Source: Rhytidiadelphus loreus (taxonomy: Eukaryota > Streptophyta > Bryopsida > Hypnales > Hylocomiaceae). Taken from it: a DNA stretch of 64,000 nucleotides. The position numbers and the translations under genes are program-made. Below the pieces are notes generated by a model that was given only the letters and a program-made list of their open reading frames with translations, was not told the DNA's origin and did not search any database. The stretch is taken from contig OX344763.1 in the NCBI GenBank assembly GCA_947034895.1, forward strand, positions 66,297,093 to 66,361,092, read 5' to 3'. Below, piece by piece: positions 1,145 to 63,213 of this stretch (position 1 is the first letter of the stretch; the number at the start of each line of letters is the position of its first letter).

Positions 1145-1672
1145 GTAAGACACTTGTCGCACGCGCAGTCTAGGCGTAAGTATCTTTAACACCACAAAAG
1201 CGTTAAGATGACACGAGTTATCGTCCCAGGGAATCTCAGATGTTGTCGCAATAGATATGTTTCCGGAACTACGGATCTACCCAGAAATGACAATCCGCTG
1301 TATGATCCGGCACAAAACAAACACCAAGTTCCAGATATACTATTTTCCGGAATCAAATCCGGATCCACCTTGATCCGGATTTCTACTTCTCCTATCCGTA
1401 ACACCGGTTTTTGGTACCTCTGTTTTACCCTCAGAGGGTCCTCACTTGCTCTTTCCGAGGGGTGGGGAACATCACCACTCAAGTAACATACGTATCAACT
1501 CCTAAACAACAAACACACATCCGTCCTCAAAGTCCTCAGTCTGGTAAGGAGAAAAGATGGTCCCTCTCACAACTTTCCGGGTGGCCACCCGGAAGGTAGG
1601 TCACACAGAGATACACCCTCACCCGCCCTTACTACAACGACACTCAGTTATTTTCCGGATTAAGCTTTCGCC

Positions 1673-2028
1673 TACTCCTGAGGTTGGCAGACCTTTCGGT
1701 GGTTTGGGAATATTCCACTAGGTGGTTGCCGACTTCCGCATGGAACTACTCTCGAGTTCCGGACTAGCTCCCTAACCACTACCGGATCCCACCGGATCAC
1801 CGTTCCAGCAATTTAAAGGCACTGCGCATAGCTCCTCACTTGTAAACTAGATTCAACCGCAAAACAACCGCGGATAGTTGGATTCCGGAACTAAAGGACT
1901 TGCTTTCTAGATGTCGACTACTCCTGAGGTTGGCAGACCTTCCGATGGTTTCGGAATGTTCCTCTTGGCGGTTGTTGACTTTCGCACAGAACTATTCAAG
2001 AGTTCCGGACTAGCTCCCTGACCACTAG
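1673..2028. repeat. Direct repeat pair of about 110 bp, spacing 245 bp
   Basis: The segment starting at 1673 (ctactcctgaggttggcaga...) is repeated starting at 1918 with scattered substitutions. Both copies run to 'ggactagctccct.accacta'. They lie in the 3' non-coding part of element A and contain TCCGGA words. The second copy differs mainly by transitions. Confidence 0.8.
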
Positions 2029-2302
2029 CTCAGATTGAATGACACAAAATGGAATGACAGGCTACAAGCCGGCCTGCCCTTTAAAAAGCAAAACAACACG
2101 ACCAAAACGGTCCAAAGAAAAAGCGGCCAATGGCCAGCTGAAAATACGGACAACGACCAGATGACTGTTCCGGGAAAAACGGAAAGCCGTTAAGTCCTAG
2201 AATTCCGGAACTTCCTAAAATTCTGGATCAGCGGGTCCCATATCCGAAAAACCCGCGTCGGAAACAAAACACCAAAACTAACAAACCAACTGCACTACTA
2301 AG

Positions 2303-4217
2303 TCACCTGTCCTTCCGGGCCTTCTTCGCTGACGTTCCGCCCTTGGAAACCCGAGTTGCCGCTTTCTGTCGGATCTGCTTCGTTGGGGTGGTCTTTGTCG
2401 CGGATCACGTCCTTGGCGGACCCGGATCCGTCTCCGCGTACTTCGATCCGGAAGAGGAGTTGGTTACTGCTTCCTCCTCTTCTGACTCCAGAACCTCTTC
2501 CAGATCACTAGGAACTTTTCGCCTAGTGGCCTTCTTCTTTTCCAGGTCTATGACCTCAATAGGGGTTGTCGGAGGAGGCCGTGGAGGAGTATGTTGCTGC
2601 ATGTGGGTGAACTCTTCCGGGTGGGTCCGAGCCGGATTCTGAATTCCATCGGGAATCTCCGTCATCGCAGTAACTTCTGCAGAGGAAACCGGAAGAGGTG
2701 GGAAGAGATTTACCGAAGTGTTCCGTGGCATCAGAACCGGATCCGGAATCCTCCTCCCATCCGTAACCTCCTTCTGCACCGAGGATCTTCCGAGTGCTGG
2801 CTGGGTCGACGTCCGCGCTCCAAGGTTGAGCTGAGTCGTCTCCGTGAACTCCCCTCCGGGTATTTCCGGAAATATGGAGGCGTCTAATCCCATGAGCGGA
2901 TCGAAGTGGCCCACCAACTGGCGCAATCTCGATCCGTACCTCGAAGTCTACCAAGATCTTGACAACCTTGGTTCCGGTGATGTGACCTTCCCGGCTCATC
3001 TGGTTGTTCCAGAGTGCGGATCTGGTGATGACATCTGCCGGCGGGTCGATGAGGTCCCTCAGTTTTCGGACAAGCTCCGTCGCATCCGTTGCCCGTTTGT
3101 TGGCGGTGTTCATCTCCCCCTCCGCCCAGGTCGCGCGGTTTTGAAGATGATTCCGCTCAGCCTCCAGAGTCTTGATCCGGCCCTCCAGCAGGCGAACCAT
3201 CTCTGGATCTGGTCTGCTATTGATTGCTTCGACAATCTCTGTCTCGTCCGCTACCTACAACGTCGCGCAGACGCTCCGGATCAGAGTGGCCATCCGTTCG
3301 TTTGTTGCCTTCTGATTCCATAACCAAGCGATCATGGACTCGAATATATCTTGGTCCGGCTCAATGTTCCGGAATGGAACAGGGTCCGAAAGATGGCCCT
3401 TCCCCCTTGAATCTGGATCCGTACTCTTTCGGCGGGAGTCGTGCCTACCCGGCGAGTCGTGCTCCGGTTCCGGCTTCTCTTCCTCTTTTGATTCATGATC
3501 CACCGGATCTGGTTCCGAGGGAAGACAGTACCGCATCAAGCTATCCCCTTGCCGGTAGATGATGTCTTCCGGATCACTAAGTACCTCCTGCTTGTGGTAC
3601 AAGTAGAGGAGGTACGGACTGATGGGGCTCGATTTCTTCCCCGCTAGGTTTCCGGAAAGCTTCTCCACGATGGAGTGGAAAACAAGCCCCCAACTAACTG
3701 GTCAAGGGGCCGATTTTCCTCTCTCCCCTAAGGCTCCGAAAACTGTATTTGCCACAATGACTATAATCCGGCTAGGCTTTTCTGGATACAAGATGGGATT
3801 GAGAAACTCCAACAGTCTCTAATCCCTAGGATTCCGGCAGTCGGATGCGGTGTAACCCTCCTTCGGATCGGCCGGGTTCCGGAATCTATCCGCCACAAAC
3901 TTCTCCGGCCGGCCGGCCCATCCGGATCCCCTAGAGGACGCGAAGAAAATACCCGCCCACATTTCTACAGTCCAAGACTTTGGACGACCCTTGACGGTGA
4001 GATGGCACTGGTTGGGAGTACTGTATACTATCTCGTCTATCATGTCCTCGCTCCGAATGTTCCAAGGTCTTTTCAGGAACCCCAGACACCCCATATCCAT
4101 CAAATCGTCCTCTAGTTGCCGGTGGTGTTCCGGATTCTCAGGGATTTCCGGACTAATCATCCGGGCGGTGATCCCTGACTTCCGTTGCACACTCGGCCCT
4201 GCCATAACTACCGACAT
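2303..4217 (-). pseudogene. Element A protein, copy 1 (unknown family, possibly gag-like), broken
   Basis: ATG at 4217 opens a frame running to TGA at 2305-2303, broken by in-frame stops at 3821 (TAG), 3704 (TGA), 3257 (TAG) and 2407 (TGA) and by one frameshift near 2.92-2.95 kb. I recognise no domain. The protein is homologous to that at 12410-14050. Shared landmarks are 'MGCLG....PW', 'SPISPYL..LY', a coiled-coil-like Glu/Lys/Arg-rich middle, 'IL.DF....EIA' and 'IDLE' near the acidic C-terminus. A basic Lys/Arg-rich tail follows the 2407 stop, so that stop is probably a mutation. A gag-like or other structural transposon protein is possible but unproven. It is the only gene of the element. 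Confidence 0.6.
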
Positions 4218-4640
4218 ATTCCGTCCTCACTTCCAACTCACTTCCGCTAATCTTTCCGCTAACCTTCCGCTAATCTTCCGTCGCCAGTTCCGCCTTACTT
4301 CCGTCCTACTTTCCGGTGCGATCAACACCGGCCTCCCCTTCTCTCCCTAACGTGTTCCTATCTCACCACACTTTCACTCACTAAGCGTCATCGCGATAAT
4401 CCCGCGGAGGAAGAGGAAGAATGAAGGAGACAACGGGGATTAAGTAGCTTTCGGGGTCGGCGTTCCCGTAAGTTCCCTAGCCGGACTAGGCTCTAGGGCC
4501 TACTCGGCCGGAACTTTCTGGTTTCCGGATTAGGATTAGGGTTTCCGAATAGGGTTTCCGGATCCAACTGTAACCCTAATTACAGTTTAAGGTTTTCCGT
4601 GAAGGCTCTAATTCCTATTTCTGTTTTTGGGCTTCCTATT

Positions 4641-4907
4641 CCCTACTTGTTATGGAAAATTTGAAAATTTCTACTCTATATAATTACTATTATCTATTAT
4701 TTTTATTTATCTAGATGTTGCGTACTTCCACAACACTAAGCTATACCTACTATTTAAAAAATTAATGGATTGATTTCTAGGAGTTTAGTGAAGTTATAAC
4801 TATTGTCCCTTGTCGTGATTAATGAATGAATATGTTGAAGTTAATTATAGAGAAGTGTGATTACTTTGTAACAAATGGATAAGCCTGCATTCTGTGACTT
4901 AAATCAG
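4641..4907. other. Intron remainder between element A and the next exon
   Basis: AT-rich sequence without a reading frame. It includes an imperfect inverted repeat around 4714-4734 (tgttgcg...cacaaca) that could mark the border of element A. It ends in an acceptor-like aaatcag. Confidence 0.4.
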
Positions 4908-5284
4908 TCACATCAGGGCTTTGGGATTGAGAACTATGGAGAATATCTTGGCAAATATGACAAGACAGATAGCTAATCTGCCAGATGATGTGCAAGTGGA
5001 ATTGTTTCGTACAATTGCTAGTTTTCCAGCAATTACGTTTCCTATATTGGAAATGACTTCTAATGAACTTGCGGGGATTTTTGAGAGCAGCCGCAACGTG
5101 CCCCTTGAGAAGCCACAAGCACTAAAGCAAGGAAAAGCAGAGGAGAGATCTGGCACTGTCTTCCCAGCATTTGAGAGGCAGACACAAGCAACAAAGAGGA
5201 GGGCATTGGTGGGGGGGAGTTCTGACGCTAACTCAGGAGGTAGTGACAAAGAAATAGAGGAAGAGGCATTGGAGGAGAAGTGCT
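4908..5284 (+). pseudogene. Second exon of the Transposase_24/DUF8039-like gene
   Basis: The open frame begins after an acceptor-like tract and ends at a donor (GCT|GTAAGT at 5285). It encodes a mostly helical segment (LPDDVQVELFRTIASFP) followed by a low-complexity Ser/Gly/Glu-rich linker (GGSSDANSGGSDKEIEEEALEE). No catalytic motif is visible. Position and strand fit the gene that begins at 991. The exon start could be a few bases downstream, at another AG. Confidence 0.45.
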
Positions 5285-6355
5285 GTAAGTTGAAGGTTAG
5301 CTTAATTCCCTTCTAATTGCAATTAATAATACTATAGAAATGCATGTAATGAAGTTCCGAAAAAATTTCCCATCATTGTTGAAACATTGCTTTATTGCAA
5401 TTGCCATATGTATATGGATTATTGTACATGACAATTTTTTTCTTTAACAATGATGTCATGTATGAGACTTATAATTTGTCTTGAAGAATTTGGTCTTGGT
5501 CATTTTTGACTTTATGTAGTTTTGAAGGTGGATTTCTAAGACAATCAAGCCAGAAAAAAAAGTTTTAAGTCATTTTAGTCTCATATGAGCACATGTGACT
5601 CATGAGAGTTAAAGGAAGTTAAGTAAGAATAAGTGCTTGTAAGAAGGACCAATTAAGATAGATTCTAGTCAGAAATGACCATTTGTTAGTGACTCTAGTC
5701 ATGATTGACCAGATTTGGTTGACTTCCGACTTAAAGATTATGTTATTGGACTGTTTGTAGTCAATGTTGATGTATTGTGAGTTTTTGGCAGTCAATATTG
5801 ATCTATTATAATTGTTTGTAGTGATGTATGATATATTGTGACTGTTTGCAATTGCAAATGATGTTTTACGACTGAAAGCAGAGTCACAAATGGTCTTTGG
5901 TGATTGTCTCAGTCGCAAATGATCTTTTGTGACTATCTCCAGTCACAAATGATCCTTAATGACTGTTTGCAGTCACAAATGGTCTTTGGTGATTGTCTCA
6001 GTCGCAAATGATCTTTTGTGACTATCTCCAGTCACAAATGATCCTTAATGACTGTTTGCAGTCACAAATGATCTTCTATGACTGTTTGCAATTAGAAGAG
6101 GCTAATTGGAGAACACCATATGCAGTAATGACCATTTATGATTGACAGTAGAAAAAAATTTGAAGTCGACACTTTTCTTAGTCAAATGACGTCATTACAA
6201 AGTGTTTGTTTCAAAAAATGCCTTGGAAGTTGAACTTCGTTCCCTTCAATATGCATTTCTCAATAGTTGTAGTTGGTTTTATTCTTTAGGGGCATAAAAG
6301 GCATTGTTGGGCATCTTATAGTGATATAATAAGTTGTTTTATTTTGTATTCACAG
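5285..6355 (+). repeat. Intron filled with GACT/AGTCA palindromic words
   Basis: This intron is bounded by GTAAGT and a CACAG acceptor. From about 5590 to 6140 it is almost wholly built of 'gactgtttgcagtcacaaatgatc'-like units, i.e. TGACT, a 5-7 base spacer, then AGTCA. An 89 bp unit starting at 5882 is tandemly repeated at 5971. The same word fills other non-coding parts of this gene (7.5-7.65, 8.88-9.4 and 11.25-11.69 kb) but not its exons. Confidence 0.8.
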
Positions 6356-7228
6356 GTGCTTCAATATCAACATCATCACCCTAGGCCGTGGCCCAAGGAA
6401 GCCAGAAGGAAGAGCAAGATGACTTCAGCAAGCGACGTGATGGTCACATCACAAGTGGAAGAGGATAATTTGTTATTTGATGACACAGACGAGACAATGA
6501 TGGGGGAGGAATCAAAAGAAGACATAGACAAGCACTTCAGTGCGGAGGAGGATGTAGATGGCCTAAGTGAAGAGCTTTTCAACGATGTAGTGGATGAGTT
6601 GGAGCTCCGAGAAGTGAGCATACCCATGGCAAAGAGTGGAGCAAACCCAAAGCAAGTATGCGAGAAGATGCGAAAGTTGAGTAGAACTAAAGGGAAGGAA
6701 GTTGGCAATGTGGACAGAAGTCCAAGTCTTCAACGGCAATCTACTTTGAAGCAATTCAAGAGGAATCAACAGAAGGTTGATGACAGAGATTGGATTGAAG
6801 TAGACCTTGTGGGTTGTCCCACAGGAGTGCATAGGGCGGACTAGTTGACAAAGATTCGTGGATATTCTCGTGACTTGGATTGGAGTGTGGATGACTTCAA
6901 TTCACATCCTCGACCTCTACTTTTAGCAATCAAGGAGAAAATGGTGTCAAAGTTTGAGTATCGTGGTGGGAAAGGCGATGTTCTTGAAAATGTCTTCTTC
7001 CGCATTCTAAGGTCACAAATGAAGATGAAGAGGGCAAACATGAAGAAATTGATAGAGGCCGACGCTCCCATCCCCACAACTGTGAAGCCACACCACGTGA
7101 AGAATTTCAAATAGCTCATCAAGAGGATAGAAAAAGTAGCATATGTTGAACATATGAAGATTGCCCGGCAGATTGTGCAGAATGTGTCCTATAGTGGGCA
7201 GTCTGAGGGAGAAGTGAAATCACGCTTG
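6356..7228 (+). pseudogene. Main exon of the Transposase_24-like plant transposon gene, with two in-frame stops
   Basis: The exon lies between a clear acceptor (tattcacag) and donor (TTG|GTAAGT). It encodes an acidic region (DDTDETMMGEESKED), a basic Ser-rich stretch, then 'GVHRAD*LTKIRGYSRDLDW', 'LAIKEKMVSKFEY' and a helical basic segment with 'RILRSQMKMKRANMKK'. This order (G..G....L....R, then a W-x-I-style FE segment, then R/K-rich helices) is what I recall of plant Transposase_24-type proteins associated with CACTA-like elements. TAG at 6841-6843 and TAG at 7112-7114 interrupt one unbroken frame; the second is plausibly a mutated Trp codon. Confidence 0.5.
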
Positions 7229-7808
7229 GTAAGTGAAAGAGATGTCTGCACTTTTGTCATTTTAGTTTACGCATGTGATTGTAGATGAACATTTGTAGTC
7301 ATTGTTTTATTGAGTATTATTTTTATAACCGTGAAATCTTGAATTGAGCATCTATATGAGGTAAAATTTTTTGGTAATATGACAATGTTTAGCCACAAGT
7401 AGGACATGTTCAAGAAAACAAGGAATGATGAATAGGATGAAGGTGTGAGTACTTGCATTCATAATGAACATAAACTTTGATGTACGTGAAATTATATTTC
7501 AATTGTATTGTGACTAATTGTAGTCACATGTAGCGCTACATGTGACTACACGTAGTCATATTTGGATACAGTGGTGACTATGTATAGTTAGATGTAGCTA
7601 GTCATATTACTACGTGCAGTCATATTTGGTCACTAATATGACAACTTACATTTGTAAACAGTAATTTATGTTAGTAGTAATAGTTGTAATTGGACACGTA
7701 CGTGACAACATGCAATTGTATATTGTTTGTCAATGTTTTTTGGTGTATTCACTAGGGTTGAATGTCTTGGTCTTGAAATTTACACATGTAGGGTTGCCTT
7801 CATTGCAG
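7229..7808 (+). repeat. Intron with ATGACTA-type palindromes
   Basis: The intron-like stretch carries 'gtgactacacgtagtcatatttgg' and similar words between about 7500 and 7640, a variant of the GACT/AGTC word used throughout this gene. It ends in the acceptor ttcattgcag. A small extra exon near 7.4 kb is possible but not supported. Confidence 0.55.
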
Positions 7809-8293
7809 GTTGCACAATTAGGTAGACCCCTACTCAAATGGAAGTGGAAGTAGAACTTGCTTCATTGGACAAATCAGTGCACACTCGCTCGTCAAATTCA
7901 AGAGGGGCAGTGAGTAATTCAAGGAGGGCCGGTAAAGGCATAGAAGAAGTGCGAAACAAATTGAATTCGTTCAAAGAGTCTATGAGGGGTGAATTAAGCA
8001 AAATGAGTAACCTAATGAAGCAACTTTTATTCAATGTGAAGAAGTTGAATGGAAGAAAGACACACCCTTCAAGTTCCGAAATAGGCACCACAATGCCGGA
8101 AGTTGCGGGTGGTGAGGAGATGATGGAGGGATTTGTAATTTTGAGCACCCCTGACTCTCTAAAAACACGGAAAGAAGCAGCCGGAGAACCACATGCAGTG
8201 AATGTGTTGAAATGTGCTGAGGTAGTAGATGCGGCAATAGAGGTTTGTGCAAAGATCATAAGCCCTTCAATGTCATTCAACATAATTGAGTAG
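7809..8293 (+). pseudogene. Coiled-coil exon of the same transposon gene
   Basis: The open frame follows a clear acceptor. It starts with a Ser/Arg-rich segment and continues into a helical region (IEEVRNKLNSFKESMRGELS, then MSNLMKQLLFNVKKL) likely to form a coiled coil, ending in 'SPSMSFNIIE' and a TAG. A splice donor near 8242 (GAG|GTTTGT) could end the exon earlier. No enzymatic motif was recognised. Confidence 0.4.
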
Positions 8294-8369
8294 GTTTTCT
8301 TGCCATTATATTTGTTTAGAATTGCATGTTAATTGAGGGTGTTAAGTATAAAATCCCAACAACTGAATT

Positions 8370-8640
8370 ATGGATGTCATTGTGACTTTGAAGGAAAAAG
8401 GCGCTATTGATAAGTTGGGAAATGTAAAGCAAACTGGGATTACTTTGCCAACGGTTGAGACAGTTGAGAAACGAGTAGGCGGTACAAAAGGAAAGAAGGA
8501 ACAAGGAATTGTTAAGAAGAGGAAGGGTGAGGCTGAGAAATTGTGGGTAGACAAAAGTCTTCACTCCAGCCGTGCAGCATTGATTGTAGAGAAGGTTGGT
8601 GAGAAGGTGAAGGAGGTGTAAGAGGATCCAAAGGTTTGTA
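8370..8640 (+). pseudogene. Lys-rich exon of the same transposon gene
   Basis: A plus-strand open frame begins at an ATG and is rich in Lys, Glu and Val (VEKRVGGTKGKKEQG, KRKGEAEKLW). It ends at TAA (8619-8621), which continues in frame into 'EDPK', so the stop may be a mutated CAA. Function unknown; it is assigned by position and by the surrounding palindromic word. Confidence 0.35.
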
Positions 8641-9670
8641 GGACTTGCATGAGTGTATTTTGTGTATGTAAAAGAGAGTTGTTTAAAAAAGTAAGATTCT
8701 TTTAGGAAAAAAATGAGGTACCAATTGAGTGATTGTGTAATGCAAGAAGAAACACTATTGTAGAAAAGGTTTGGAGGTCAATGTTATAGAGTATGTGGTC
8801 TATGTTTATGATTTGGGTTTGACATGTATGTGGATTAGAGGAGCACACGTAAACATACTTATGTGTATATAACTGAAAGCATTAATATTTCTTAGAATGC
8901 AACTAATGGCAGTCATATTTTTTAGTATGTAATTAGGGGCAATCTTGTTTTTGAGTATGTGACTAAAGGCAGTTATATTTTTTAGTATGTGACTAGGGGC
9001 AATCATATCTTTGAGTATGTAACTAGAGACAATCATATCTTTGAGTATGTAACTAGAGACAATCATAATATATAGTATATGACTGTTGGCAGTCAATTTC
9101 TCTAGATTATGACTGATGGCAGTCATAATTAATAATATATGACTAATGGCAGTCATAATTTCTAATATATTATTGATGGTAGTCATAATTTATAGTGTAT
9201 GACTGATGGGAGTCATATTCTATAGTATATAACTGATGGTAGTCATATTTTGTAGTGTATAGTAGATGTCAATTGTATTTTTTAGTATATAACTAATGGA
9301 AGTTGTAATTCGTAGTATGTAACTATGTGGAGTCATATTAATGTTTATGTAAGTTGTAGCAATCATATGTCTTTGTATCTAACTTTCTGAAGTCATTATT
9401 ATTTGTATGTTGTATAGGGGGGGATCTAAGAGGATCCTTTTGTATTATAGTATGTATAAATATACTCGTATTTCTCATTATGTGAATGTGGTCAAGTATA
9501 TTTCATTGCTTACTATGGGGGCCAATAATTTTTTAGTATTTGTGAAGAAGGGTACTAAAATTTTAATATGTATAACCATGGGTAATTAGAGTAACCTTTG
9601 TTGTATGTGTTGACCTTATAATTGGTGAATAGCATGGCAATGAATGCTAATTTGTTGATATACATGTAGA
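8641..9670 (+). repeat. Intron or spacer with about 20 ATGACT...AGTCAT units
   Basis: From about 8870 to 9400 the sequence is a chain of 'tatgactgatggcagtcataat' units. Each is ATGACT, a 6-base spacer and AGTCAT at roughly 30-60 bp spacing, degenerating toward both ends. The remainder is AT-rich, without supported genes, up to an acceptor-like tacatgtag. Confidence 0.8.
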
Positions 9671-10400
9671 TTGGAGTAGAAGGGTCACGGGAACAACATT
9701 TGAAAAAAGATTCCGAATTCATAGAAGAGGAGCCTATTAGAAGGAGGGGGGCAATGAAGGCCGCTAAGGTTGGCAAAGGTTCAAAGAAGAAAAATATGTC
9801 AAGGAAGCTGAAGTTTCCACCGGTGAGAGTTTTGGATGATTCACGTAGAAAGATACTTGTGTTGAATGTCCTAGGTTTTCTTTGTGACATCTAACTACTA
9901 GACGACACTAAAGAGTGTTGTAGGATGGTATGATCCATTATGAGAGAGAGTTTAAAGTAAAAATTAAGAAACGGGCTAAGTGTGCGACTTTTGTGACAAT
10001 GCTACATTCTCGATTTGATGTCGGGATATGGGCTCCGATTGGAGAGGCCCTTCTACAAGTAGTGGCTCAATTCCTAACTCATGGGACACCTATGAAGTAG
10101 TGTTTTTTGTAGAGAAGGGAAACTGGTGGTGGAAGGAGAGACCTGCATGATTTATTTGACATGATTCCAGATCCAACCCATGGCTCGGCTAGGGTCCTTC
10201 AAGTGGATTGAGATTCCACAGTTACTTGTGACTCACCTAATATGAATGTAGTAAACATAAGTACATGGGATCCTTTAGCTTCACGACACAGAATAACTTC
10301 CTAAAAACTATAAAAGGACCCTTTGAAGTTTTTAGTCGCAATCCTTCCGACATCGAGTATTGTGTGATGTTCTTGGACAAGGCAATCAGTCAAGCATAGA
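9671..10400 (+). pseudogene. Decayed exon(s) of the transposon gene
   Basis: After the acceptor, an open frame holds basic sequence (IRRRGAMKAAKVGKGSKKK) and then 'RVLDDSRRKILVLNVLGFL' up to TAA at 9892. A shifted frame from about 9924 to 10100 encodes 'MIHYEREFKVKIKKRAKCAT' and 'FDVGIWAPIGEALLQVV'. Further coding-like fragments with stops (HDLFDMIPDPTHGSARVLQV) follow. The segment is clearly degraded by stops and at least one frame change or unseen intron. I cannot assign a domain. Confidence 0.35.
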
Positions 10401-10513
10401 ATCCACTACGTACGGTATGTATTTTTGAACATATTGTTTGTCTTCCAGTTAAACTAGTGAAACTAAAGCTTCATTGTTTGTGTACTAAATGTCTACATTT
10501 ATTGTAAATGTGA

Positions 10514-10895
10514 ATGCAAAATGCACAAGGTGGAAAGACATCACTTGAAGGTTCTTGGAGCTCAAAGAATCCAAGCCCTCTCCTCTTGATTGTAGGATCA
10601 AAGGTAAAAGTGTTTGACGTGGACGATGACAAGAAGGCCAAAGAAGATGTAATTGCACATGGAGTCATTGTGAATGTTGCAGGAGGTTCACTTCATGGAC
10701 GGCTCATTGAAGAGGGAAATGTATCTATTAGCATAACATTTGTAGTTACTTACTGGATCAGAAATGGTTCTTCTATATGAGGGAAACCATAACGACAACC
10801 CTCCTATGGTGCATGTAGGCGATGCTGTGAAGTCAATGACAAAGTGGTCGATAAAAGCCTTGGCTTCTTCAAACGAATGAATGAAGCCATGAAAT
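10514..10895 (+). pseudogene. DUF8039-like domain remnant
   Basis: The frame encodes 'VKVFDVDDDKKAKEDVIAHG', then 'GGSLHGRLIEEGNVSISI'. After a frame change near 10770, another frame gives 'VHVGDAVKSMTKWSIKAL'. The order 'G.V......LHG..L......V.I..V' followed by 'VGDAV...I.WP...L' is what I recall of DUF8039, found in many plant transposon proteins. Here it would be the C-terminal part of the gene that starts near 1 kb. The frame change and stops mark it as non-functional. The assignment is from memory and needs a profile search. Confidence 0.55.
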
Positions 10896-11829
10896 AGTGG
10901 ATTGCACACTCCAATATAAGGTTAGACGTGTGTGTATATGTGTTCACAGTGTGAATGTTTTTCATGTGTGTTTTGAACTTGAGTAATAAATGTCATTGAA
11001 GTGCATCTTTGAATTTTTGTACATGTTTGAAAATTAGAAGAGTTGCAAAATCATGTTTAGGATGTAATGTTGGAGAGTCATGCTTGTTCATTTTGCATGG
11101 AAGAAGATGTATGATTTCTTATTAGAAAAGTATAAGTGGATAGCAATGACAAATAGAAATCAATAATCCACAAAATATGCTTAGGTATTCTACAACCGTT
11201 GTATGATTTGTTCAATTTATAGTTCAAAATACATATCAATAAAAAAATGACTACTTGGAGTCACAAAATGATTATAATAATTTCCAAAAAATGACTAGGT
11301 ACTCTCAATATGACTGAAAAGTATAACTAAGAAGAGTCGTTTTACAAACCATCAAAAAATATGACTCTCCGCAGTCATATTCCACATGATTGCAAAATAT
11401 GACTCACCGCAATCATATTTCACATGACTGCATAATATGACTCACCGTAGTCATATTCCACATGACTGTAAAATATGACTCACCATAGTTATATTCCACG
11501 TCATCAAAAAATATGACTCAATGCAGTCATATTCCATAGTAATAAAAAAATGACTAACCTCAGTCATATTCCACATCATCTAAAAATATGACTGAATGCA
11601 GTCATATTCCACAAAATATGACTGACCACAGTTATATTCCACGTCATCAAAAAATATGACTCAACGCAGTCATATTCCACGTAGGATTTTTTCATTTATC
11701 TGAAGAGTTGAAGAAAAAGTCAAAGAAAGTCAAAATATATGCTTTGTTGGCATACTATGGCTAATTATGGGTATTTATACCCCTCAACTTATATGACTAC
11801 CAATATGACTGATGTCTGAAGTGTTGCGA
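10896..11829. repeat. 3' flank with ATATGACT...AGTCATAT palindromes
   Basis: From about 11255 to 11690 the sequence is a run of 'atatgactcaccgcagtcatattccacat' units, the same word as in the introns upstream, here with perfect ATATGACT/AGTCATAT arms around CACCGC-like spacers. No gene is visible. The word ends where element A copy 2 begins and reappears weakly at 15245-15345, consistent with insertion of element A into this flank. Confidence 0.75.
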
Positions 11830-12127
11830 CCTAAATTTTTGATTTTGTTTGAATTATCCAAAATTTGGATTAAAATTCTTTACCAGGAATCATAATCCAG
11901 TTTAGGAATAAGGTCCAACCAAAAATAAGCCAAGGAAGTGAAGTAGTATCCAAACCGGATCTAATCCAGTTCTAACACAGAAACGGAATCTGGCCGGAAT
12001 AGGTTATAACAGGAATAAGTATGTCCAGATTCTGTCATGAGCGGATTAGGCTTAGAGTGGATACGTTGAAGACCAGATTAGGTCAGAACGGATTGAGTCA
12101 TGATGACCTAATCAGGGGTCCCCCATA

Positions 12128-12136
12128 GCTATATAA
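12128..12136 (+). promoter_or_regulatory. TATA-box-like site of element A copy 2
   Basis: The sequence 'agctatataaagg' sits about 280 bp before the ATG at 12410. It resembles a plant TATA box in position and sequence. Confidence 0.4.
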
Positions 12137-25450: not shown

Positions 25451-25452
25451 TC

Positions 25453-28520: not shown

Positions 28521-28696
28521 GGTCACCCTCACCCGCATTCGCCACTCTTGGTCCTGTGCTACGGCTTTCATCCACCTTGAAGTAGCTGAATGCGAGCTTG
28601 TGGGCCAAGGTGGTGATTGAGGGGTGGACTTGTTGCCTTTTTTTTCCACGACTCTATTTATTCATCGACTGTGGGTAACTTTTTGAAGGAAGAACT

Positions 28697-52868: not shown

Positions 52869-53321
52869 ATGGCATCTTCACAATCAATTGGTAGAAAAAG
52901 AGAAAGAGAAGAAGGAAGAAATTACAAAGACCGAAATTTTGAAAAAAATAAACTAACTTCATGGAATTTACTGAAGGAGGAGAACCTTATTGAATTAAAT
53001 TATGATGGAGATGGAGCCAAGGGATGTACATATAGTACACATGCTACACAATATAAAAATAAAAAAATGTATATCATTCCTTGCCAATTTACACTACAAC
53101 ATGATGTTTTTGTAGATGCATTTTATAGAGAGTATAATAGTTTATTTACGCGTGGGCATCAATCACAATGTTGCCATAGAGTTTGTGCAAATTGCTTGCC
53201 TAAGTTTTTTGAAGAAGGAAGTAAATGTAAGAAGTGTCCCAATGTAAAGAATATAGTATATTCTGGAAATTGTGTTGAGATATTGGGATTGTGGAATTGT
53301 AGGGATTTTGTAGTCACTTGA
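52869..53321 (+). CDS. First exon of the TET/JBP-like gene: Cys-rich (zinc-finger-like) protein segment
   Basis: ATG 52869 opens a frame with a basic start (GRKREREEGRNYKDRNFEKN), then 'LIELNYDGDGAKGC' and a Cys-rich segment (CCHRVCANCLPKFF, then SKCKKCPNVKN) with CxxC pairs like a zinc-binding knuckle. The frame reaches a TGA at 53321, but possible donors lie just before it (AAT|GTAGGG near 53298; TTT|GTAGTC near 53310), so the segment probably splices to 55796. Same strand as the dioxygenase exon; exon spacing and the motif-filled intron support one gene. Cys-rich fingers often accompany chromatin-acting dioxygenases. The link between the exons is inferred. Confidence 0.55.
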   Translation: MASSQSIGRKREREEGRNYKDRNFEKNKLTSWNLLKEENLIELNYDGDGAKGCTYSTHATQYKNKKMYIIPCQFTLQHDVFVDAFYREYNSLFTRGHQSQCCHRVCANCLPKFFEEGSKCKKCPNVKNIVYSGNCVEILGLWNCRDFVVT

Positions 53322-55795
53322 TTTTTCTTTTTTCTTGACAATTCGTCTTTGGTAGTGTAAATAGGACCAATTGCCAATTTAAACTCTTACTGTTAGCACA
53401 ATATAGACGATTTGTCTTTATAAAGCAGGTTTGGAACGATGTGATTGATTTGGCCTGTAGTGTTGTAGATGTGAATAGTTGTCTACTATAGTGCATATAG
53501 CCCAGACAATTCGTCATTTTCTTTGACCAATTTTTATCTTTCTAAGTCTTGAACAAATTGTCGTGTACTTATATATATATATATATCTTGCAATCGAATT
53601 GTAATTTCTAACTATTTGCCGATTTTGTTTGTTGTGCGTTAATTGTTTAAAATCCAGTGATTGGATACTTATTTGGCTTGGGAGTTTGCCAAGCTGCGGG
53701 CCGTGACACCAGTGATTGGGTCACATTTCTTGACAAATTGTCAAGTTGTTATTGCGATCCAGTGATTGGATGCAAGTGTGTCTGGAAATTTGTTTGGAAA
53801 TATTCGGGTGATAAATTGTAGTTGTGTAAGTGTGTGTAACTGAAATACTGTGTATGACGAATTGATTTGGAATTGCTGAGTTGTTTGATGTGTGTTGGTA
53901 TTGTTTGTACATCAACTCGCTATGACTGTGAGTATGTGCGAGGACAGAGACAATTTGTCAAGCTTTATAGTTTCGGTAGATTGTTGTAGTTATGATATCA
54001 GTTAAAGACAATTTGTCGGAGTATGCTGTGATTGCGTGAGGACAATTTGTCAAGTTAACTGGTCATCATTGTAGTAGACAAATTGACTGTGTTGTTAATA
54101 GAAACGATCGAGATAAATTGTTATATTGGTTACTTCGATGGGAAGCATACAAATTGGTGGAAAGAGAAAGACAAATTGTCATCAGTGATCACGATTGCTG
54201 CCAAGAAATGGGAGTTCAAATCAAGAAAGACAAGTTGCCGCGGAGTTAAAATCGTTTGATAGACAATTTGACAATTCTTTAGCGATACAGATAAGTACAG
54301 AAGTTCTTCAAGTTGTAATTGTGATAATTTGTTTTCGATACTTGAATTGAAGTCTTTTGCTGCCTAAGATAGAATTGTTTATAGGATAAGTTTCGAGTGT
54401 TGAATATGAAAATTGATTTTGTCAAGTTGTTTTATTGAACAATGAAAGAATCGATATGGAAGTCTGAATAGGAATTTCCAAAATTTGAAATAGTGTAACG
54501 ACAAATTGTCTAAAGAGTTACACAGTTATATTACCATTAATTGCAACGCATTGAATAACCAAATTATTATTCGAATAGGTTTCGTTGGAAAGGAAAACTG
54601 GACTTGGAATCAAGGTAAGACAAATTGTCGTGAATTTATGTTTATTGATTTTATATCACTTTGAAATTATCTGTATACTTTTAAGTATAGTTGATTGATA
54701 TGGAACTGATATGGAAACAACAATTTGTCATAGTGTATGAATTGTTTTGAATTAATTCCAATTCTGGAAGGGAAACTATTAATTTAGGGATTACTGAAAA
54801 GACAAATTGTTTTGACTCTTGGTATTCAAACCACACCTGGTTGACCTTTAAATTGACAATTTGTCTCTGATTACAAAAAGATACCAAGCTGAGAAGACAA
54901 TTTGCCTTTGTGGTTTTCTCTCTCTTATCGACTAATGAACTGATTAAATCGATTACTGTAAGACAATTTGTCATGAACCGGGACTGTACTGAGTGAACAG
55001 AGAGGGACAATTTGTCAAAGAATTCGATGTGGTTAACGACAATTTGTCCTGGTTGTTTGTTGTAAATAAATTGAAATGCGTATTGTGTATAATAGATGAA
55101 TGTATAGTTTTGGAATGCAAATAGGCTCAAGGTATTAAAAGAAGAGATTGGAATAAATATTGAATTGTATTGTGATGATGTGTCAAATAGAATTGCCTTG
55201 TGTTGTTGTTATTGTTGTAAATGTAATGCATCACACACTCATGCCCTTGCATTTAGTTAAAGACAATTTGTCGTAGGACTGAGACGGATTTCCTACTCAT
55301 GATAATTTAGTAAATAGGCTAAATAAATAGTGACTGCCCGACAATTTGTCTCACACGATAAAAGATCACTTTAATTAACAAACATATATCTCTATACATA
55401 TCTATATATTATTTGCACTTAAAGGTCTAGATCATGCATGACAATTTGTGGTCTATCTTGACAATTTGTCAGAAATACCCCTAGAACACTAGTCTAGGAC
55501 TGGGATTGCATTCATATGTCCAATAGCATTATTAATGGACTGCCACCCAAATTGATTCTTGGGAATAAGAGTGAAATCTACGTATTTACCCTTTGTTTGT
55601 GTATTTTAGTAGTATTTACCCATAAATCCCACATCATTCTAGAAAACAAGTGACCTCAGCCACAATACATTAGACTATTTGATCAATCCCTAGAAATAGA
55701 ACCCCTATACTATATTCTTGGGTTTTTGGGTTGAAGCAAAAACCTAGTTTACAGATTTCCAAATTGATAGTATATTAGAATTTCACGAACTATTG
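53322..55795 (+). repeat. Intron packed with GACAA(A/T)TTGTC palindromes
   Basis: Between about 53330 and 55475 I see roughly a dozen exact GACAATTTGTC or GACAAATTGTC sites (e.g. near 54006, 54041, 54170, 54855, 54962, 55008, 55040, 55263, 55339 and 55461) and at least as many one-mismatch versions. The core is a perfect palindrome apart from the central A/T. It is in both orientations, irregularly spaced, and absent from the flanking exons. The stretch ends in the acceptor actattgcag. Confidence 0.85.
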
Positions 55796-56884
55796 CAGGG
55801 ATGTAGAAAATTCACTAAATCAAAAAGTGATTTAATAGTCCAATGTGTTATATCAAAATCTAGTATTTTATATAGAAATACATTGCAAAGATTGAACTTA
55901 CCTAAAAATGTAGAACTTCACATAAGTTATTTGAGTATTCCAAATAGTAGTGCTTCAACGGGTAATGAACCATTTTGGAAACACAAAAATTTTAACAACG
56001 ACAAGTTGAAGTGGCAAAACATATACAAACAAGATAAACTAGTGAAGACTACTTCGATAGCGTTGGCTATTTTTGATGGATCAAAAATTCCTCCATCAAC
56101 CTTGCAATTGGAATTATCCTACATTGTAGCTCTTTATATTCCAAATGCATTTATAACAAGTTCATATGAAATGACATCAAGACTAGTGAATTAATATTAT
56201 GAAACAACACCACCATATGGTCAAATCAAATATAAAAATACATCATTGCGTGGAAATTACAAGAATAGAAGCCACGGTTATTCAACAAATGCAGGAGAGG
56301 GTGTAGGAGATATTGTCCTGTACCACAATTCAAAGATATCATTGGCAACAGAGAAGGCATTTAAGGATTTGGGTGATCAATGCGCATCAAACATTTGGAA
56401 AAGTCTTATGCCACATTTTGGAATACAAATCAATAATTATTTTGAAAACCAAAGTAGTCCTGCTCGCTGTTTGTGTATTGGTGATAAAGAGAATCCAACC
56501 AATGTCATTCAAATGCACATTAGCAAAAATTCTTATATCAAGCCCCACATTGATCTTAATGATTTGGAATCATCAATTATCACATGGTTCACTGAAGGTC
56601 ATCCGGAAGGAGCAGAATTTGGGTTGTTTCAAATGTTATACAAATTTTCTACAAACAATGGTTCAGGTTTATTTCTTAGGAGTCTAGAGTATGTACATGG
56701 TACTTTAGAAATTGATACAATGGGAGATGAATTAGAAAATTACACTTTAGGAGTTGCATTGACAAATAAAAAAGGGTTAATGACTAGGTCAACCAATGAA
56801 TTGAATGCACGTACCAAATATCCTAGAGGAATTCCTTCTTCCAAACATTGGTATACTATTGATCCAAGACACTTAGGAGATTAA
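55796..56884 (+). pseudogene. TET/JBP-like 2OG-Fe(II) dioxygenase exon, one in-frame stop
   Basis: After the acceptor at 55795 one frame runs to TAA 56882, broken only by TAA 56192-56194, plausibly a CAA (Gln). The second half carries the dioxygenase pattern: 'KPHIDLND' (iron ligands His and Asp), 'EGAEFGLFQM', 'SGLFLRSLEYVHGT' (distal iron His) and 'YTLGVAL' as the following strand. This order (H.D, GGEF-like, LF.RS...H, then a hydrophobic strand) matches the TET/JBP family, which oxidises 5-methylcytosine or thymine in DNA in animals, fungi, algae and trypanosomes, sometimes encoded by transposons. A downstream Arg (TRSTNEL) may bind 2-oxoglutarate. Activity is unproven; another 2OG oxygenase subfamily is possible. 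Confidence 0.6.
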
Positions 56885-57234: not shown

Positions 57235-57540
57235 TTTTTGCTAATATCACATGTCATTAAGTGCACTAATCCCCAAAATACATGTTAGTGCACTTCGTGA
57301 TACATGATCTTAGCCAAAATAGATCAGGTGTCACTAAGTGCACTAACATGTATTTTGGGGGATTAGTGCACCTAGTGACATATGATCTTTTTTTGTTAAA
57401 ATCATGTGTCATTAAGTGCACTAACATGTATTTGGGGGGTTAGTGTACTTAGTGACACATGATCTTTTTTTGCTAAGATCATGTGTCACTAAGGGCACTA
57501 ACCCCCCAAATACATGTTAGTGCACTTAATGACACATGTA
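57235..57540. repeat. Cluster of nested palindromes (GTGTCACTAAGTGCACTAAC...)
   Basis: Four or five copies of 'atcatgtgtcactaagtgca' followed by 'ctaacatgtattttgggg' alternate in orientation, so each adjacent pair forms a palindrome of about 65 bp per arm pair. It looks like tandem foldback (MITE-like) units. A single 'gtgtgtcactaagtgcacca' also lies at 57080. Confidence 0.85.
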
Positions 57541-58446: not shown

Positions 58447-60120
58447 ATTCTTTCACTGCTTTCTTATACGAGATCTTTTATTTGGCAACGACAATTGCGG
58501 TATGATTAAAAACCTCTTTTTTTCTAGCTGGATTGTTTAGAATCTATTTGTTGCAATATGGTAATTACAGTTTCTGTGCTTCTTTGATGTTTAGGGTTAG
58601 CTTCCTTTGGTGTTTAGGATGGTCATAGTCATTATTGTTTCTATGCTTGTTTGATGTTTACGATTAGCTTGCTTTGGTGTTTAGGGTGCTCACAACTCAT
58701 GGAGTCACGGTATTCTTGCTTGGATGCTTGCATGTGTGGTTCATGGAGTCACGTTGCTTGGATGCTTGCATGTCTGGTTCACGTTGTCACGTTGTTATTG
58801 CTTGGATGCTTGCATGTCTAGTTTGCCGGCTTTCTATCAATCTTTTGTACATTGTTTTTTTAGTTTTACGGTTCAATTCCGTTGGTTTACAAACTGTTGT
58901 AAACCAATGTAAGTTTAGAAGCTGCTTGTTCAAAACATTGGTTGAACTGTAAGTAAACCAAATTGCAAGTTCATTCAACAATTCAGAAGCTGCTTGTTCA
59001 GTGTAAGGATCTAGGATTCAAGTAATTGTATTCAAATACAGTGAAAAAATCATTATATATGATCTACATTGTTAGGTGAGACTTCTAGTAAGAAGGTTTT
59101 GTTGATAAAATGTACTAACAATGCATTCTTGTGTCTATGGTGTAGGATACAAGTGCAGAACTTTTGAAATTTCACCTACAGGCGGGTTGCCAGTACAAAG
59201 AAATCAAATATGAGGTCCATAACTTCCTCAATTGAAATTAGGGTTTAAAGACAGAATCTTAGGGTTTATGGACCAAATTTTAGGGTTTAGTGACACCAAT
59301 TTAGGGATTAGAACAACAATTAAAATTGTAGGGCTTCTAGACAATAAGGAATTTCAGCCATTCTGCCATCTATCTTCGTTTCGAAGATAAATATCCTCGA
59401 GGCGAGGATAAATATCCTCGAGGCGAGGGTACATATCCTCGAGGCGAAGATAATGAAAACATAGATCCGTTCCAATATCCTCGAGACGAAGATAATATAA
59501 ATGAAATCCAACAATACTTGTAGAAAAAATTAAAAATAAACAACAGATTATAAATAAGAACATAAAAAGGCCCAAAAAATATGGATTCTAAAACATAGCC
59601 AACAAAACATGTATCATCCACGTTATCACGTTAAGAGAAGATTAAAAAAATCACTCTAATTGTCTTTCTGTCACAGAAAGAAAATAGACAGAACAAACAC
59701 TATTATCTTTGAGGCGAAGATAATATTGAATTTGTAAACAATGAATAATAAAAATTAGAATAATTGATATACGTCTCCTTAGTGAACGGGAGAAAATAAT
59801 TTAAATTAGGAATCCACTTACATCAATAGTAAATGAAGGATGTCATGCATGACTATATAAAAAAACTGGGTAGTAAATGCCCCAAAAATATCCTCGACTC
59901 GAAGATCAAGAACCATGACTGACTGGCATTACCATTGAAACACGTTGCTTTATTTATTTACGCTCCCTTGAGTTATCTTCGCATCGAAGATAACTTGTGT
60001 CGCAAAAATAGAAGTGAAGTTCATAGAACATGGTAATTGACATACTTGCCATATGCAATGGTTATCCTCGACTCGAAGTAAAGTCTTGCTTATGCTTACA
60101 TGGTTAACTGAACTGTGCAG
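58447..60120 (+). repeat. Leader intron with TATCYTCGAGGCGAGGATA palindromes
   Basis: Between the leader and the acceptor ctgtgcag at 60120 lie at least eight palindromes of the TATCTTCGA/TCGAAGATA type: a tight group of five at 59374-59495 and singles at about 59703, 59887, 59973 and 60063. Also present is a short tandem repeat, 'gcttggatgcttgcatgt' three times at 58717-58820. No coding exon is supported inside. Confidence 0.7.
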
Positions 60121-60130: not shown

Positions 60131-61560
60131 ATGGAGCAAGAGGATGGATATGACTACTTGACAGTAGAGCCCTTTTTTGAGCCGTTTGAGAATCCGCTCG
60201 GGGTCGAGCCATTTATTGATGAAATGGCAGATTCATACGGAAGACTTTGGCAATTCAAGGAGCACATTGTAGCGTGGACGTTTGGGATTGCTCGATTCCA
60301 AGACTATGTCTTCATTCGCTACCGAGTAAAAGAGCAGCCGTCATTCTTTCCCTTACACCTACACTCCAGGAAAAAGTAACAATGATTGAACACCACCACT
60401 CGGATTTTGTTGTAATTGTTGTGCGGGAAGTCAATAAGGATGGCAAGCCAGGGAACCACTGTCATTCAATTGTCATGAATTTGAAGGATGACCGAGCAAA
60501 ATTTGACGTGCAGTTCCTCATAACATCTCTAGAGGAGTCCCAGACGCAGTATCTAATTAAGGAATTTGAGGATGCGCAATATGTTCCCTGGGAAGACAAG
60601 ACCGCAAATGTGAACTCCAGAAGATTGAATAGAATCTGGGCATCACTCGATCGGCATGCTATTAAGCATGTGAACATTGTGCCGTCTCTAGTACGAAACA
60701 AGAATCAAAAGTGCCGTCCTGCAAATGAAGGAGGTCACAGTGGGTCTGCTCCTCCAATGTCGATTAGCAGGAGCATTGGCCAAGGTCAAATTCAGTCAGA
60801 ATCTCGCAAGCGCGATGACACTGAAGAACGAAGAGCCGGGGCAACAACAAAGAGAGTGCGAAAATCAAATGTGCCTGCTATTGTGACAACGGTAGGAAGT
60901 TCTGGATCGATTCTAACAAGTGTTGAACCCACCCCAACAACCACCCAGAAATCCATGGAGGATCATGTCGTGCACGCCTTATCACAACAAGAATTCTGGG
61001 ACAAGCACGGTTCGTGCTATATATTGGGTTTGGATCCATTCCCAGTGACCATCAAGCAATGCATTGCTGCGAAGGATGAATACATCATTTGAAAGCTAGA
61101 GACTCGCACTGTAGAGAGCACAAAGAAGCAACTGCTAATGCTTGGAGACGTAATGCAACGGCAACGTATTTGCTTAACGCCGGTGGATGCCAACAAGCAA
61201 TTATTGAAATCCCCGCCGAAAGATTGGGCTGAGATAAAGCATGGTCTGTTTATAATTATAAATGGACAGCACAGCATTGCCGCATCAAAGTTGCTCCAGC
61301 TAGGAGGCTGTGGTAATAAACGAAAGCAGGAGTTGTCAACTTGGAATGCCTTCATTGTGTGGTCATTGGATCCAACAAAGTTGAGAAACATTTCGCAATT
61401 CTACAACCTTACGAATCATATAGAGCACCAGCAACCAACTTGGGGGACACAGATTCTGGGATTACGAAATGTCTGGATCCACTTCTCGCGACCTACAAAT
61501 ATTGCCAAGGAACTTGTGATCCGATGGAATGGTGTAGTCCTAATTGAACGCCAGTACAAA
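60131..61560 (+). CDS. ParB-like exon of a ParB / DNA methyltransferase-like gene (one in-frame TGA)
   Basis: ATG 60131 follows a strong acceptor. The first part (EQEDGYDYLTVEPFFEPFEN) is acidic. Near 60325 the frame must change: either a frameshift or a 44 nt intron (CGA|GTAAAA...CTCCAG|GAA). The next frame continues to donor AAA|GTAAGT at 61561, with one TGA at 61090 (plausible Trp). Its centre is Ser/Arg-rich. Near the end comes 'CLTPVDANKQLLKSPPKDW' followed by 'GLFIIINGQHSIAASKLL', resembling the ParB/sulfiredoxin fold motif '(I/V)(I/V).G.HR..A...L'. In bacteria and phages such domains are often fused to DNA methyltransferases, consistent with the exons that follow. Specificity is unknown; an eroded or diverged His-Arg pair (GQHS) is odd. 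Confidence 0.5.
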
Positions 61561-61722
61561 GTAAGTCGTAGTGCAATTGTATTAAGTATCCTCGAGTCGA
61601 AGATCCTCACTACCTATACCATTTTAATAGGTGTTGCTAATGAATGGGATGCATTTCCTTCGAGTTCTGAATAACATAGCGATGATTGAAACCACTAATG
61701 TGTCTACTGTTGGGTCTTGTAG
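61561..61722 (+). other. Intron with the TATCCTCGAGTCGAAGAT word
   Basis: GTAAGT to GTCTTGTAG; phase 0 on both sides. The palindromic word lies at 61587-61604, about 26 bp after the donor. Confidence 0.75.
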
Positions 61723-63045
61723 GACTTCACAGATCATGTTGTTAGTCGGTTTAGAAATATTAATCCTGAGAGAGAAGGTGCAACCATAAAGTCTGTGAGC
61801 GACTTGAAATGTGAGATAAAGATAATAACCCTGCATGATGCATTGTGGAAGTATTGGAAGGAGTTCCTCACGAAGCACGCTCAGGGGGATCTGATCGATC
61901 CTGTCACACAAGAAAAATTCCGGGATGCAAAAGGCTTCAAATCAAAGAACATGAGCTTGAAAAGAGAGTTCTTTAAGCACATGGGCCACTTCACAGATAG
62001 AGACATCGGAAGATTAGCGATGCACTTGCTAAATCAAACTCCGGGTCGTGATGCGGCTTACCCCAAGGTGTCCGTCCTGAAAGCAAAGTACTTGGTGCCC
62101 GATAACCAGGTTGCGTCTGAGTGGGTCGAACGAAGGAAGAAGAAAAAAATCGTTCTAGAGGAGCTCATGGACATTAAGCCGAGCCTCAAGTTGCGTGATG
62201 CCTATGGAAATGTCATCACTGACAAGTGGAGGCCGTGGAAGAAGAGGCACTTCTTCACGTCATCAACTTGGGATCTCTTTATTTCCCAGCCAAAGTTGAC
62301 ATTATTTACGAAACGGCTTACGAATGAGGCAAAGAACAAGAGGGCAAAAGAACTTGGGAAGAAATTCACAGACGAAGCGACATTTTTCCAGAGATTCATG
62401 AAGTCTAAGTATAGACTAAGTGATACTCATGGAGAAGTGTCATTAATCAGATTAGATATTGTTGTGAGGGCAATTGTGAAAAGTGATCACTACAAGTATG
62501 AACGGAGACCTCTAAACCTCACTATTCTTGATGTCCGTGAAATGGTGAAACCTGTCGACTCTCAGGAGGTGCTTCCGTTGGAGCCATTTTTGACTTTCTT
62601 GGCTAGGCAGTTGGAACCAGCAACAACAGATGCAAGTGTGTGGCTGTGGATTCTTCGTGGGGACGAAGACAAGCGAATTGCAATAGCATTCGCAGCTTCC
62701 AATATGTCACAGTACGATTGTCAGCAATCCTCCTATCTCCCCTGTAAGGCTAAGCGATTGAATCACTCGACGACAAGAGGGAACATGCCTCCAGTGCCAC
62801 TCCTCTTTCTATTCAAGAAGTCAAGTAGCCATGCCAATTCTGTCCGTGACAGAATGAAGTTAGGATACCATGCAGCTGACATTTTGTATTACAATGACCC
62901 ATACAAGAATAATGAAGCAAAATGGAGACTCTATGCTAGTGAATTCAGAATGGAGTTCTATTTAGAGATCCTCCAATGCTTCGCGAAGGCCAATGAGAAC
63001 GTCCTTGGAATCTTCGTTGGATCAAAGTGCATTCTTGCAGCCAAG
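61723..63045 (+). CDS. Methyltransferase-like exon (beta-class order of motifs)
   Basis: The frame is open over the whole exon and in phase with both neighbours. Early residues are basic and helical. At the end, 'GYHAADILYYNDPYKNN' is followed by 'WRLYASEFRMEFYLEILQCF' and 'ENVLGIFVGSKCILAAK', which the next exon continues with 'MFGAFFYGVCDER'. This matches the beta-class amino-methyltransferase plan: DPPY-like motif IV first, then a helix carrying W....E...YLE, then the SAM-binding motif (VLD.FAGSGTT..AA...G....G.E). Deviations are NDPYK for DPPY and GSKC for GSGT, so catalysis is uncertain. Such enzymes make N6-methyladenine or N4-methylcytosine. Another Rossmann methyltransferase, or a catalytically dead relative, is possible. 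Confidence 0.5.
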
Positions 63046-63213
63046 GTACGTCTATCTTCGCCTTGAGGATAATCCTAGACCTTTTATTCAGTTGGTTGAG
63101 CTTTTGTGTCCTTAACAATGTTCATTTCTAATCTCCAAAATTGACCATGTACATGATGATATGTACTATGAATGACTTCCTCACAAATCAATGTTTTTGC
63201 TTGTGTGCTGTAG
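63046..63213 (+). other. Intron with a degenerate TATCTTCG...GAGGATA word
   Basis: GTACGT to GTGCTGTAG, phase 0. 'ctatcttcgccttgaggata' starts 5 bp after the donor. Confidence 0.75.

Follow-up and report, generated by a model that had tools for sequence, protein, structure and literature searches.

Which genetic units own the short sequence words that recur in the non-coding DNA of one stretch of the Rhytidiadelphus loreus genome (assembly GCA_947034895.1, contig OX344763.1, positions 66,297,093 to 66,361,092; here, the window, 64,000 nucleotides in all)? An earlier note had described six such words (here, words A to F), each confined to particular genes. Our analysis shows that the owner of a word is a mobile element (a hAT transposon, a DUF7869 element, or a long terminal repeat [LTR] retrotransposon) and not a gene family. 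Confinement was borne out for words A, B, C, E, and F but not for D, and the assignment to genes mostly fell away. The words are element specific and, with the exception of word A, lie mostly outside coding sequence; words E and F outlast their neighboring sequence, and the variants of word E group with protein clades. With moderate confidence, we propose that several unrelated mobile elements each maintain a private DNA address in promoters, LTRs, and introns, which would be read by element-encoded proteins.

Within the window, all 28 sites of word E (at most three mismatches) fall at 47 to 49 and 59 to 63 kb, all 24 sites of word F (at most one mismatch) at 53 to 55 kb, and all 37 sites of word C (at most three mismatches) in clusters between 18 and 41 kb. 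An unbiased scan for gapped palindromes, which was independent of the earlier word list, returned B (TGACT-n6-AGTCA, 19 sites), F (GACAA-n1-TTGTC, 14), and E (ATCTT-n7-AAGAT, 13) as the commonest with a half-site of 5, compared with a maximum of 8 in 20 local dinucleotide shuffles; with a half-site of 6, the top counts were 11 for E and 9 for B, versus 3 in the shuffles. In per-element tests, the words rank among the most enriched k-mers of A1 (one of two A inserts), B, C, E, and F, and clustering by element is far above that of shuffles for A, B, C, E, and F. The pattern of a dense, family-specific word in non-coding DNA that avoids exons holds for B, C, E, and F and fails for A. The earlier statement that the words reside mostly in introns and flanks, A excepted, agrees with these counts, for which the gene models of A, B, C, and F were set by hand. 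Likewise, the proposed comparison with shuffled sequence and between exons and non-coding DNA gave enrichment for all words except D and exon avoidance for all except A and D. That the words are mostly palindromic holds for B, E, and F in the scan; word C is instead an oriented, bipartite word (ACCCG-n2-GTCGCC) that is not self-complementary, and its reading as a strict palindrome was rejected.

The exact 19-mer of word E occurs in 207 copies genome-wide, and its reversed control in none. Twenty 10-kb regions centered on exact E words, all on C1, were examined; 19 of them hold coding sequence of a methyltransferase-like gene, of the DUF7869 gene, or of both, and the twentieth (L012) is, from its printed sequence, a copy of a miniature inverted-repeat transposable element (MITE) that carries word E. 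Proceeding from the protein, a search with the main methyltransferase-like exon listed 95 matches, the scored best of 1,036 candidates. Proximity to word E was tested for 93 of these (two C5 fragments were left out), and the list of exact E words is complete for 35 of the 93. An exact E word lies within 15 kb of five of six paralogs at 78 to 100% identity, 16 of 18 at 54 to 58%, and none of 11 at 48 to 53%, against a chance background of about 0.9% of the sequence (rounded; C2 was taken as 86.0 Mb, the true value being 89.9).

The introns of the methyltransferase-like gene were compared in 28 copies: that of the window, 15 found by protein match alone, and 12 from E-word regions. All 28 copies have a relaxed E word in the upstream intron, and 27 have one in the downstream intron, for which a length of 330 bp was assumed if the start of the next exon was unrecognized; for the 15 copies chosen by protein alone, the numbers are 15 and 14. 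Altogether, the 12.9 kb of intron held 99 E words, whereas exon b (37.3 kb) and exon a (5.6 kb) held none, and letter (not dinucleotide) shuffles of the same stretches, 20 each, contained none. E words persist in the introns of paralogs that are only 44 to 58% identical in protein. Once the words are masked, no alignment is left between same-side introns in any of the 56 pairs formed from eight clade representatives; thus, the words are what these introns have in common. Outside the element, E-type words are absent from 24.4 kb of C-element loci and occur once in 51.8 kb of the window.

Variants of the word group with protein clades. At arm position 5, T predominates in some clades, whereas others have C, G, or A. 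Among the 27 of 28 rows compared (those over 300 amino acids), all 12 that form a supported clade have T-poor words in the two introns alike. The 48 to 53% paralogs whose introns were read carry variant E words. In 108 of 180 distinct words, the two arms are complementary at positions 5 and 15, compared with a mean of 71.3 and a maximum of 92 in 2,000 shuffles. As an observation in its own right, positions 2, 4, 6, and 8 of the arm (A, C, T, and G) vary least and positions 1, 3, 5, 7, and 9 more (sites between 47647 and 63071 and loci L009 to L043).

Word F (GACAAWTTGTC) had been taken for the word of a dioxygenase intron. The word is real, with all its sites at 53 to 55 kb, but its ownership is not as proposed. 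The 24 F words, none of them in an exon, lie in an insertion of 2,445 bp (53309 to 55753, plus strand) that begins with TGTAGT and ends with TTTACA and is flanked by a target-site duplication (TSD), GATTT. The TG...CA ends, the 5-bp TSD, and an empty site are all present: a copy of the E element on C1 (L019) is uninterrupted where the dioxygenase-like gene of the window is split, and the site is likewise empty in four further copies of this gene, which are up to 98% identical. No exact F word was found in these five other dioxygenase-like loci. Because of this, F belongs to the LTR, and the alternative that it is the dioxygenase's own word was rejected. A search for F-family LTRs listed 41 matches, including the window's own; among these, one triplet and three same-strand pairs give five spacings of 15,878 to 15,968 bp. 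Same-strand pairs at a fixed spacing identify the insertion as a solo LTR of a long LTR retrotransposon. Three other F-family LTRs contain 23 to 25 F words each, and across the four LTRs the F-word columns are 94% invariant, versus 82% elsewhere; none of 5,000 shifted masks scored as high. Separately, three F-family LTRs stand in a row in G000:C3:63695798-63730054, each 15,909 bp from the next, which suggests a tandem retrotransposon array.

For word C, the assignment to five genes at 18 to 41 kb was correct as to place, since all C sites are found there, but the five genes form one hAT transposon. This element, with its C arrays, spans 23,379 bp (18227 to 41605, plus strand), has the ends CAGGGTTGTCT and AGACAACCCTA, and is flanked by the 8-bp TSD AATAAAAA (18219 to 18226 on the left and 41606 to 41613 on the right). 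Its row in the search for terminal inverted repeats (TIRs) and TSDs has 3 mismatches in 13, and this search alone is not decisive, as the same rules gave several long, chance-like pairs with low-complexity or repeat ends. The hAT call is made because hAT transposase domains reside inside the element (Pfam DUF659, E value 2.9e-37, and Dimer_Tnp_hAT, 4.8e-07) and because other copies begin and end with it: the matches of L054 and L055 start exactly at 18227, and that of L044 stops at 41604. Ac-like hAT transposons have CAGGG/TAGGG ends, an 8-bp TSD, DUF659, and a hAT dimerization domain. The element in the window shares all of these features, whereas it differs in its size of 23 kb and in its five genes, including a kinase-like and a RING-finger gene, each with its own word array.

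Of 41 C words (at most two mismatches), 34 lie within 600 bp upstream of the five ATGs and none in 10.1 kb of coding sequence; five of the remaining seven are in the rest of the hAT element, one in its last 600 bp, and one outside. The array at 18401 to 18656 (three distal words reverse, six proximal words forward) precedes the RING-finger gene (18923 to 21404, plus strand), which belongs to a large family and has two in-frame stops in this copy. Eight words, all reverse, at 25213 to 25409 lie upstream of a minus-strand relative of the RING gene's N-terminal part (23362 to 24856). Five forward and three reverse words (28317 to 28543) precede the protein-kinase-like gene (28697 to 30338, plus strand; Pfam PF00069, E value 5.9e-08), which is flanked by an inverted repeat of 2,220 bp and 99.4% identity (arms at 25450 to 27669 and 31328 to 33547). 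Two forward words and one reverse word (34097 to 34234) stand before a third, broken relative of the RING gene's N-terminal part (34470 to 35994, plus strand), and five forward words and one reverse word (37215 to 37398) before the transposase gene (37695 to 40686, plus strand), which encodes DUF659 and the C-terminal dimerization domain and contains in-frame stops.

Genome-wide, word C has 3,651 exact copies and its reversed control none. Eight of the ten C-word regions first chosen were examined, and six match the window's hAT element or a relative of one of its genes. C arrays are present upstream of all four RING-family genes fetched, two of which (L052 and L053) are more distant. At one place in L044, an array of 11 C words corresponds to a single word in the window, that is, a tandem expansion. 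A Pfam scan of two open reading frames (ORFs) from C-word regions gave no informative match. The RING gene family itself is large, with 2,376 candidate places at a first look; the 87 scored and listed are 88 to 100% identical, many with open frames of 800 to 1,000 amino acids, and a search with P0056 for other RING clades mostly returned the same clade. Just outside the hAT element, an 81-bp tandem repeat (42545 to 42824) is also found beside the CAGGGTTGTT end in L053 and is perhaps a shared target repeat.

The layout of these words had been compared with the VANC proteins of Arabidopsis VANDAL transposons. The published passages describe sequence-specific anti-silencing via family-specific short motifs (PMC5735166; PMC10398659), with targets that form dense, mainly non-coding arrays, rapid tandem-repeat gain, and a motif that differs between related families (PMC5735166). 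The likeness stands for words E and C in the wider tests (non-coding arrays and family confinement for both, array expansion for C, and clade-following variants for E), and the proteins differ. Under the explanation that we prefer, an element-encoded protein would bind the word of its own element (in the case of word E, by a dimer sitting on the dyad), and binding would keep the copies of the element, MITEs included, transcribed and free of silencing marks, as is the case for VANC, which binds its motif and removes CG methylation. For word E, the candidate binder would be the methyltransferase-fold protein, which, with its catalytic motif lost, may serve as a DNA-addressing factor rather than as a methylase. 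This putative pseudo-methyltransferase is the best candidate, since the word is found within the introns of its gene in all copies examined. Main-exon residues 235 to 444 have the fold of beta-class DNA adenine methyltransferases (M.BceJIV, RsrI, and CcrM), whereas the window protein is on a transposable element, shares about 10% identity with these enzymes, and lacks DPPY; the catalytic motif [DNS]PP[YFW] is absent from all 33 aligned rows, which have D-x-R instead. The base-modification system suggested by the earlier note thus fares less well than the VANC-like layout: the methyltransferase fold is there, but DPPY is absent from all rows, and the dioxygenase-like gene is not the owner of word F. 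In that gene, HxD is invariant in 13 rows; the part at 55754 to 56881 gave no Pfam match and no convincing match in the Protein Data Bank (PDB), and its predicted structure has a pLDDT (predicted local distance difference test) of 32. Only tentatively, and as a somewhat unlikely extension, do we suggest that at least three unrelated orders (hAT, DUF7869 element, and LTR retrotransposon) may each, on their own, have arrived at sequence-addressed anti-silencing, in one case by way of a catalytically dead DNA adenine methyltransferase with a clade-changing 19-bp dyad target; this would provide a large natural set of protein-word pairs.

Several observations weigh against a system of element-encoded readers. 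Of the 28 methyltransferase-like copies, 12 were found via the E word itself. The E arrays are shared with the DUF7869 gene, whose protein could be the binder instead, and the only ParB-like hint in exon a is that six of eight sequences match DUF6551, which we take to be ParB-like, with E values of 0.013 to 0.26, below the Pfam cutoff; a PDB sequence search with exon a returned nothing convincing. L032, which is not part of the 12-row clade, has the T-poor word as well; 72 of the 180 distinct E words are asymmetric variants, not complementary at positions 5 and 15; and a clade at 44 to 46% identity, found via the word, has exact E words though the 48 to 53% clades lack them. The word variants may follow the gene tree by inheritance alone rather than by co-evolution. 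For word C, two of the eight regions (L046 and L051) belong to some other element, so that the expectation that each word occurs only with its own family held in 20 of 20 E regions but in six of eight C regions. In A1, 11 of the 22 TCCGGA sites are within coding sequence.

The rival that survives best, although we regard it as unlikely, is that the words are ordinary promoter or enhancer sites, that is, the site of a host transcription factor, borrowed and multiplied, with no element-encoded binder. C arrays lie a few hundred base pairs upstream of an ATG, and in both L052 and L053 the distal half of the array has one orientation and the proximal half the other, the last words being followed by a TATATA stretch. 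LTRs, such as the one filled with F words, are known to serve as promoter regions, and the E words of the 44 to 46% clade are the same as those of the window, as a fixed host factor would allow. Such a factor does not explain why exact E words are missing near all 11 paralogs at 48 to 53%, or why the paralogs in this range whose introns were read have variants. A further point against this rival is that 27 of 28 copies have E words in the introns on either side of the exon.

That the words are transposase-binding sites for cut-and-paste transposition seems improbable. Spm and Ac have subterminal repeats to which their transposases bind, and the first and last C words, which lie roughly 170 and 380 bp away from the ends of the hAT element, would fit such a role, as would the retention of the E word by MITEs. 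However, four further C arrays lie 4 to 10 kb from the nearer hAT end, E words reside in internal introns, and word F belongs to an LTR retrotransposon, a type of element that lacks a cut-and-paste transposase. Still less probable, and rejected as a main cause on the counts of mismatched arms, is a function at the RNA level, in which hairpins in introns or leaders would govern splicing or the stability of the RNA. In its favor, E words could form hairpins and lie in introns, and the changes in their arms are partly compensatory. Yet among mismatched arms G-T (sum, 100) is not clearly favored over A-C (sum, 86); the two are similar in number, there is therefore no RNA-hairpin bias, and the dyad looks like a DNA-level site. 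Moreover, the DUF7869 gene, too, has E arrays upstream, C arrays precede the TATA-like stretch, and C cannot pair with itself. The least probable alternative of all, that of neutral tandem repeats carried along as the elements are copied, accounts for the many arrays that are tandem repeats but not for the persistence of E words in introns that are otherwise unalignable, nor for the greater conservation of the F columns within the LTR.

If private addresses with element-encoded readers are indeed what these elements maintain, the nearest known system by working principle is VANC/VANDAL. The published passages on it share with the window family-specific short words, dense arrays in introns and upstream regions, tandem gain, and words that differ between relatives, whereas the elements here are a hAT transposon, a DUF7869 element, and an LTR retrotransposon, with other proteins and, for E, a 19-bp dyad. 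By membership the window lies outside that family in the pieces scanned: none of 26 ORF pieces matched DUF1985 (VANC type) in Pfam, nor did the window pieces scanned match a Mutator-like element (MULE) transposase, hAT domains (C) and DUF7869 (E) being found instead. Fungal DNA transposons, in turn, carry TET/JBP dioxygenases beside their transposase (PMC12730594). In both cases, a DNA transposon has a gene of possible base-modifying function beside its transposase, whereas the gene in the window has no Pfam or convincing PDB match, and the passages of that paper describe no word system. In the open-licence literature, we found no word system like this one beyond VANC, nor these elements (DUF7869 included), which is a weak negative. 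Searches for relatives among viral contigs and genome contigs gave none. As sequence-specific anti-silencing by transposons is known, in the passages cited, from Arabidopsis VANDAL, the recurrence of this layout in unrelated elements and with unrelated proteins would make it a general strategy. With 95 listed methyltransferase-fold matches and 28 copies that have readable word variants, a residue-to-base recognition code could be learned from the paralogs, with a possible use in addressable epigenome tools.

The E element occupies much of the right part of the window. The earlier note had word E in the flank of the DUF7869 gene, a MITE, and the methyltransferase-like gene; the confinement stands, and the gene-by-gene assignment gives way to one multigene element plus a MITE. 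L019 aligns over the DUF7869 gene, the E array, and the dioxygenase-like gene, with a match to the methyltransferase-like gene about 10 kb further on; therefore, judging from these alignments, a single element subfamily appears to carry all three genes. The DUF7869 gene (44754 to 47456, minus strand; Pfam PF25273, E value 2.9e-31) contains in-frame stops and has relatives in the E-word regions. Between it and the rightward genes lie the MITE (47604 to 47858; 255 bp, ends AAGGCCTTATTC, E words at 47647 and 47769), which is absent from L019, and an E-word tandem array with a 47-bp unit (48144 to 49060). The first coding part of the dioxygenase-like gene (52869 to 53308, plus strand) is continuous, in five other copies, with the part from 55754 onward (to 56881, plus strand), in which HxD is conserved and an in-frame stop is present at 56192. 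E words at 59371 to 60081 precede the methyltransferase-like gene, whose first coding part (60131 to 61556, plus strand) has a weak ParB-like motif and, in this copy, a frame break and a TGA. E-type words in the first (61587 to 61605) and second (63053 to 63071) introns flank the main exon (61723 to 63043, plus strand), comprising a helical part and the adenine-methyltransferase fold without DPPY; the next exon (63212 to 64000, plus strand), as read from the sequence, runs off the window.

The left end of the window holds a B element remnant (1021 to 15420, plus strand; approximate limits, hand model), with B words in its introns and 3' flank and two nested inserts, A1 (1146 to 4735, minus strand; rich in TCCGGA) and A2 (11850 to 15235, plus strand), both with approximate limits. 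The B word TATGACT/AGTCATA has 35 non-coding sites and none in 3.2 kb of exon, and the variant GTGACT/AGTCAC has 20 and 2 (hand gene models). The word ATGACT-n6-AGTCAT had been tied to a Transposase_24/DUF8039-like gene; the word is confirmed, and the identity of the gene is not, since none of the four ORF pieces scanned gave such a Pfam match. TCCGGA, which had been read as the word of both copies of one element A, is enriched in A1 (22 sites versus 2.0 expected), whereas A2 has only five and ACCGGA is its leading word. A2 is a distant relative of A1; that the two are copies was rejected, their proteins being about 33% identical and their DNA without a long match. PDB sequence searches with A1 and A3 returned nothing convincing. 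Word D (ATCCGATGGCC), said to be confined to a truncated relative at 16.6 kb, was rejected as a word: it has one exact site and three with at most one mismatch, one of them at 31 kb, and is a 2.4-copy tandem repeat. Both A inserts are flanked by B words, and only 1 of the window's 42 B words lies inside them; thus, the words mark nested insertions. Finally, foldback MITE-like inverted repeats are present at 16935 to 17204, 33612 to 34041, 41353 to 41523, and 57243 to 57538.

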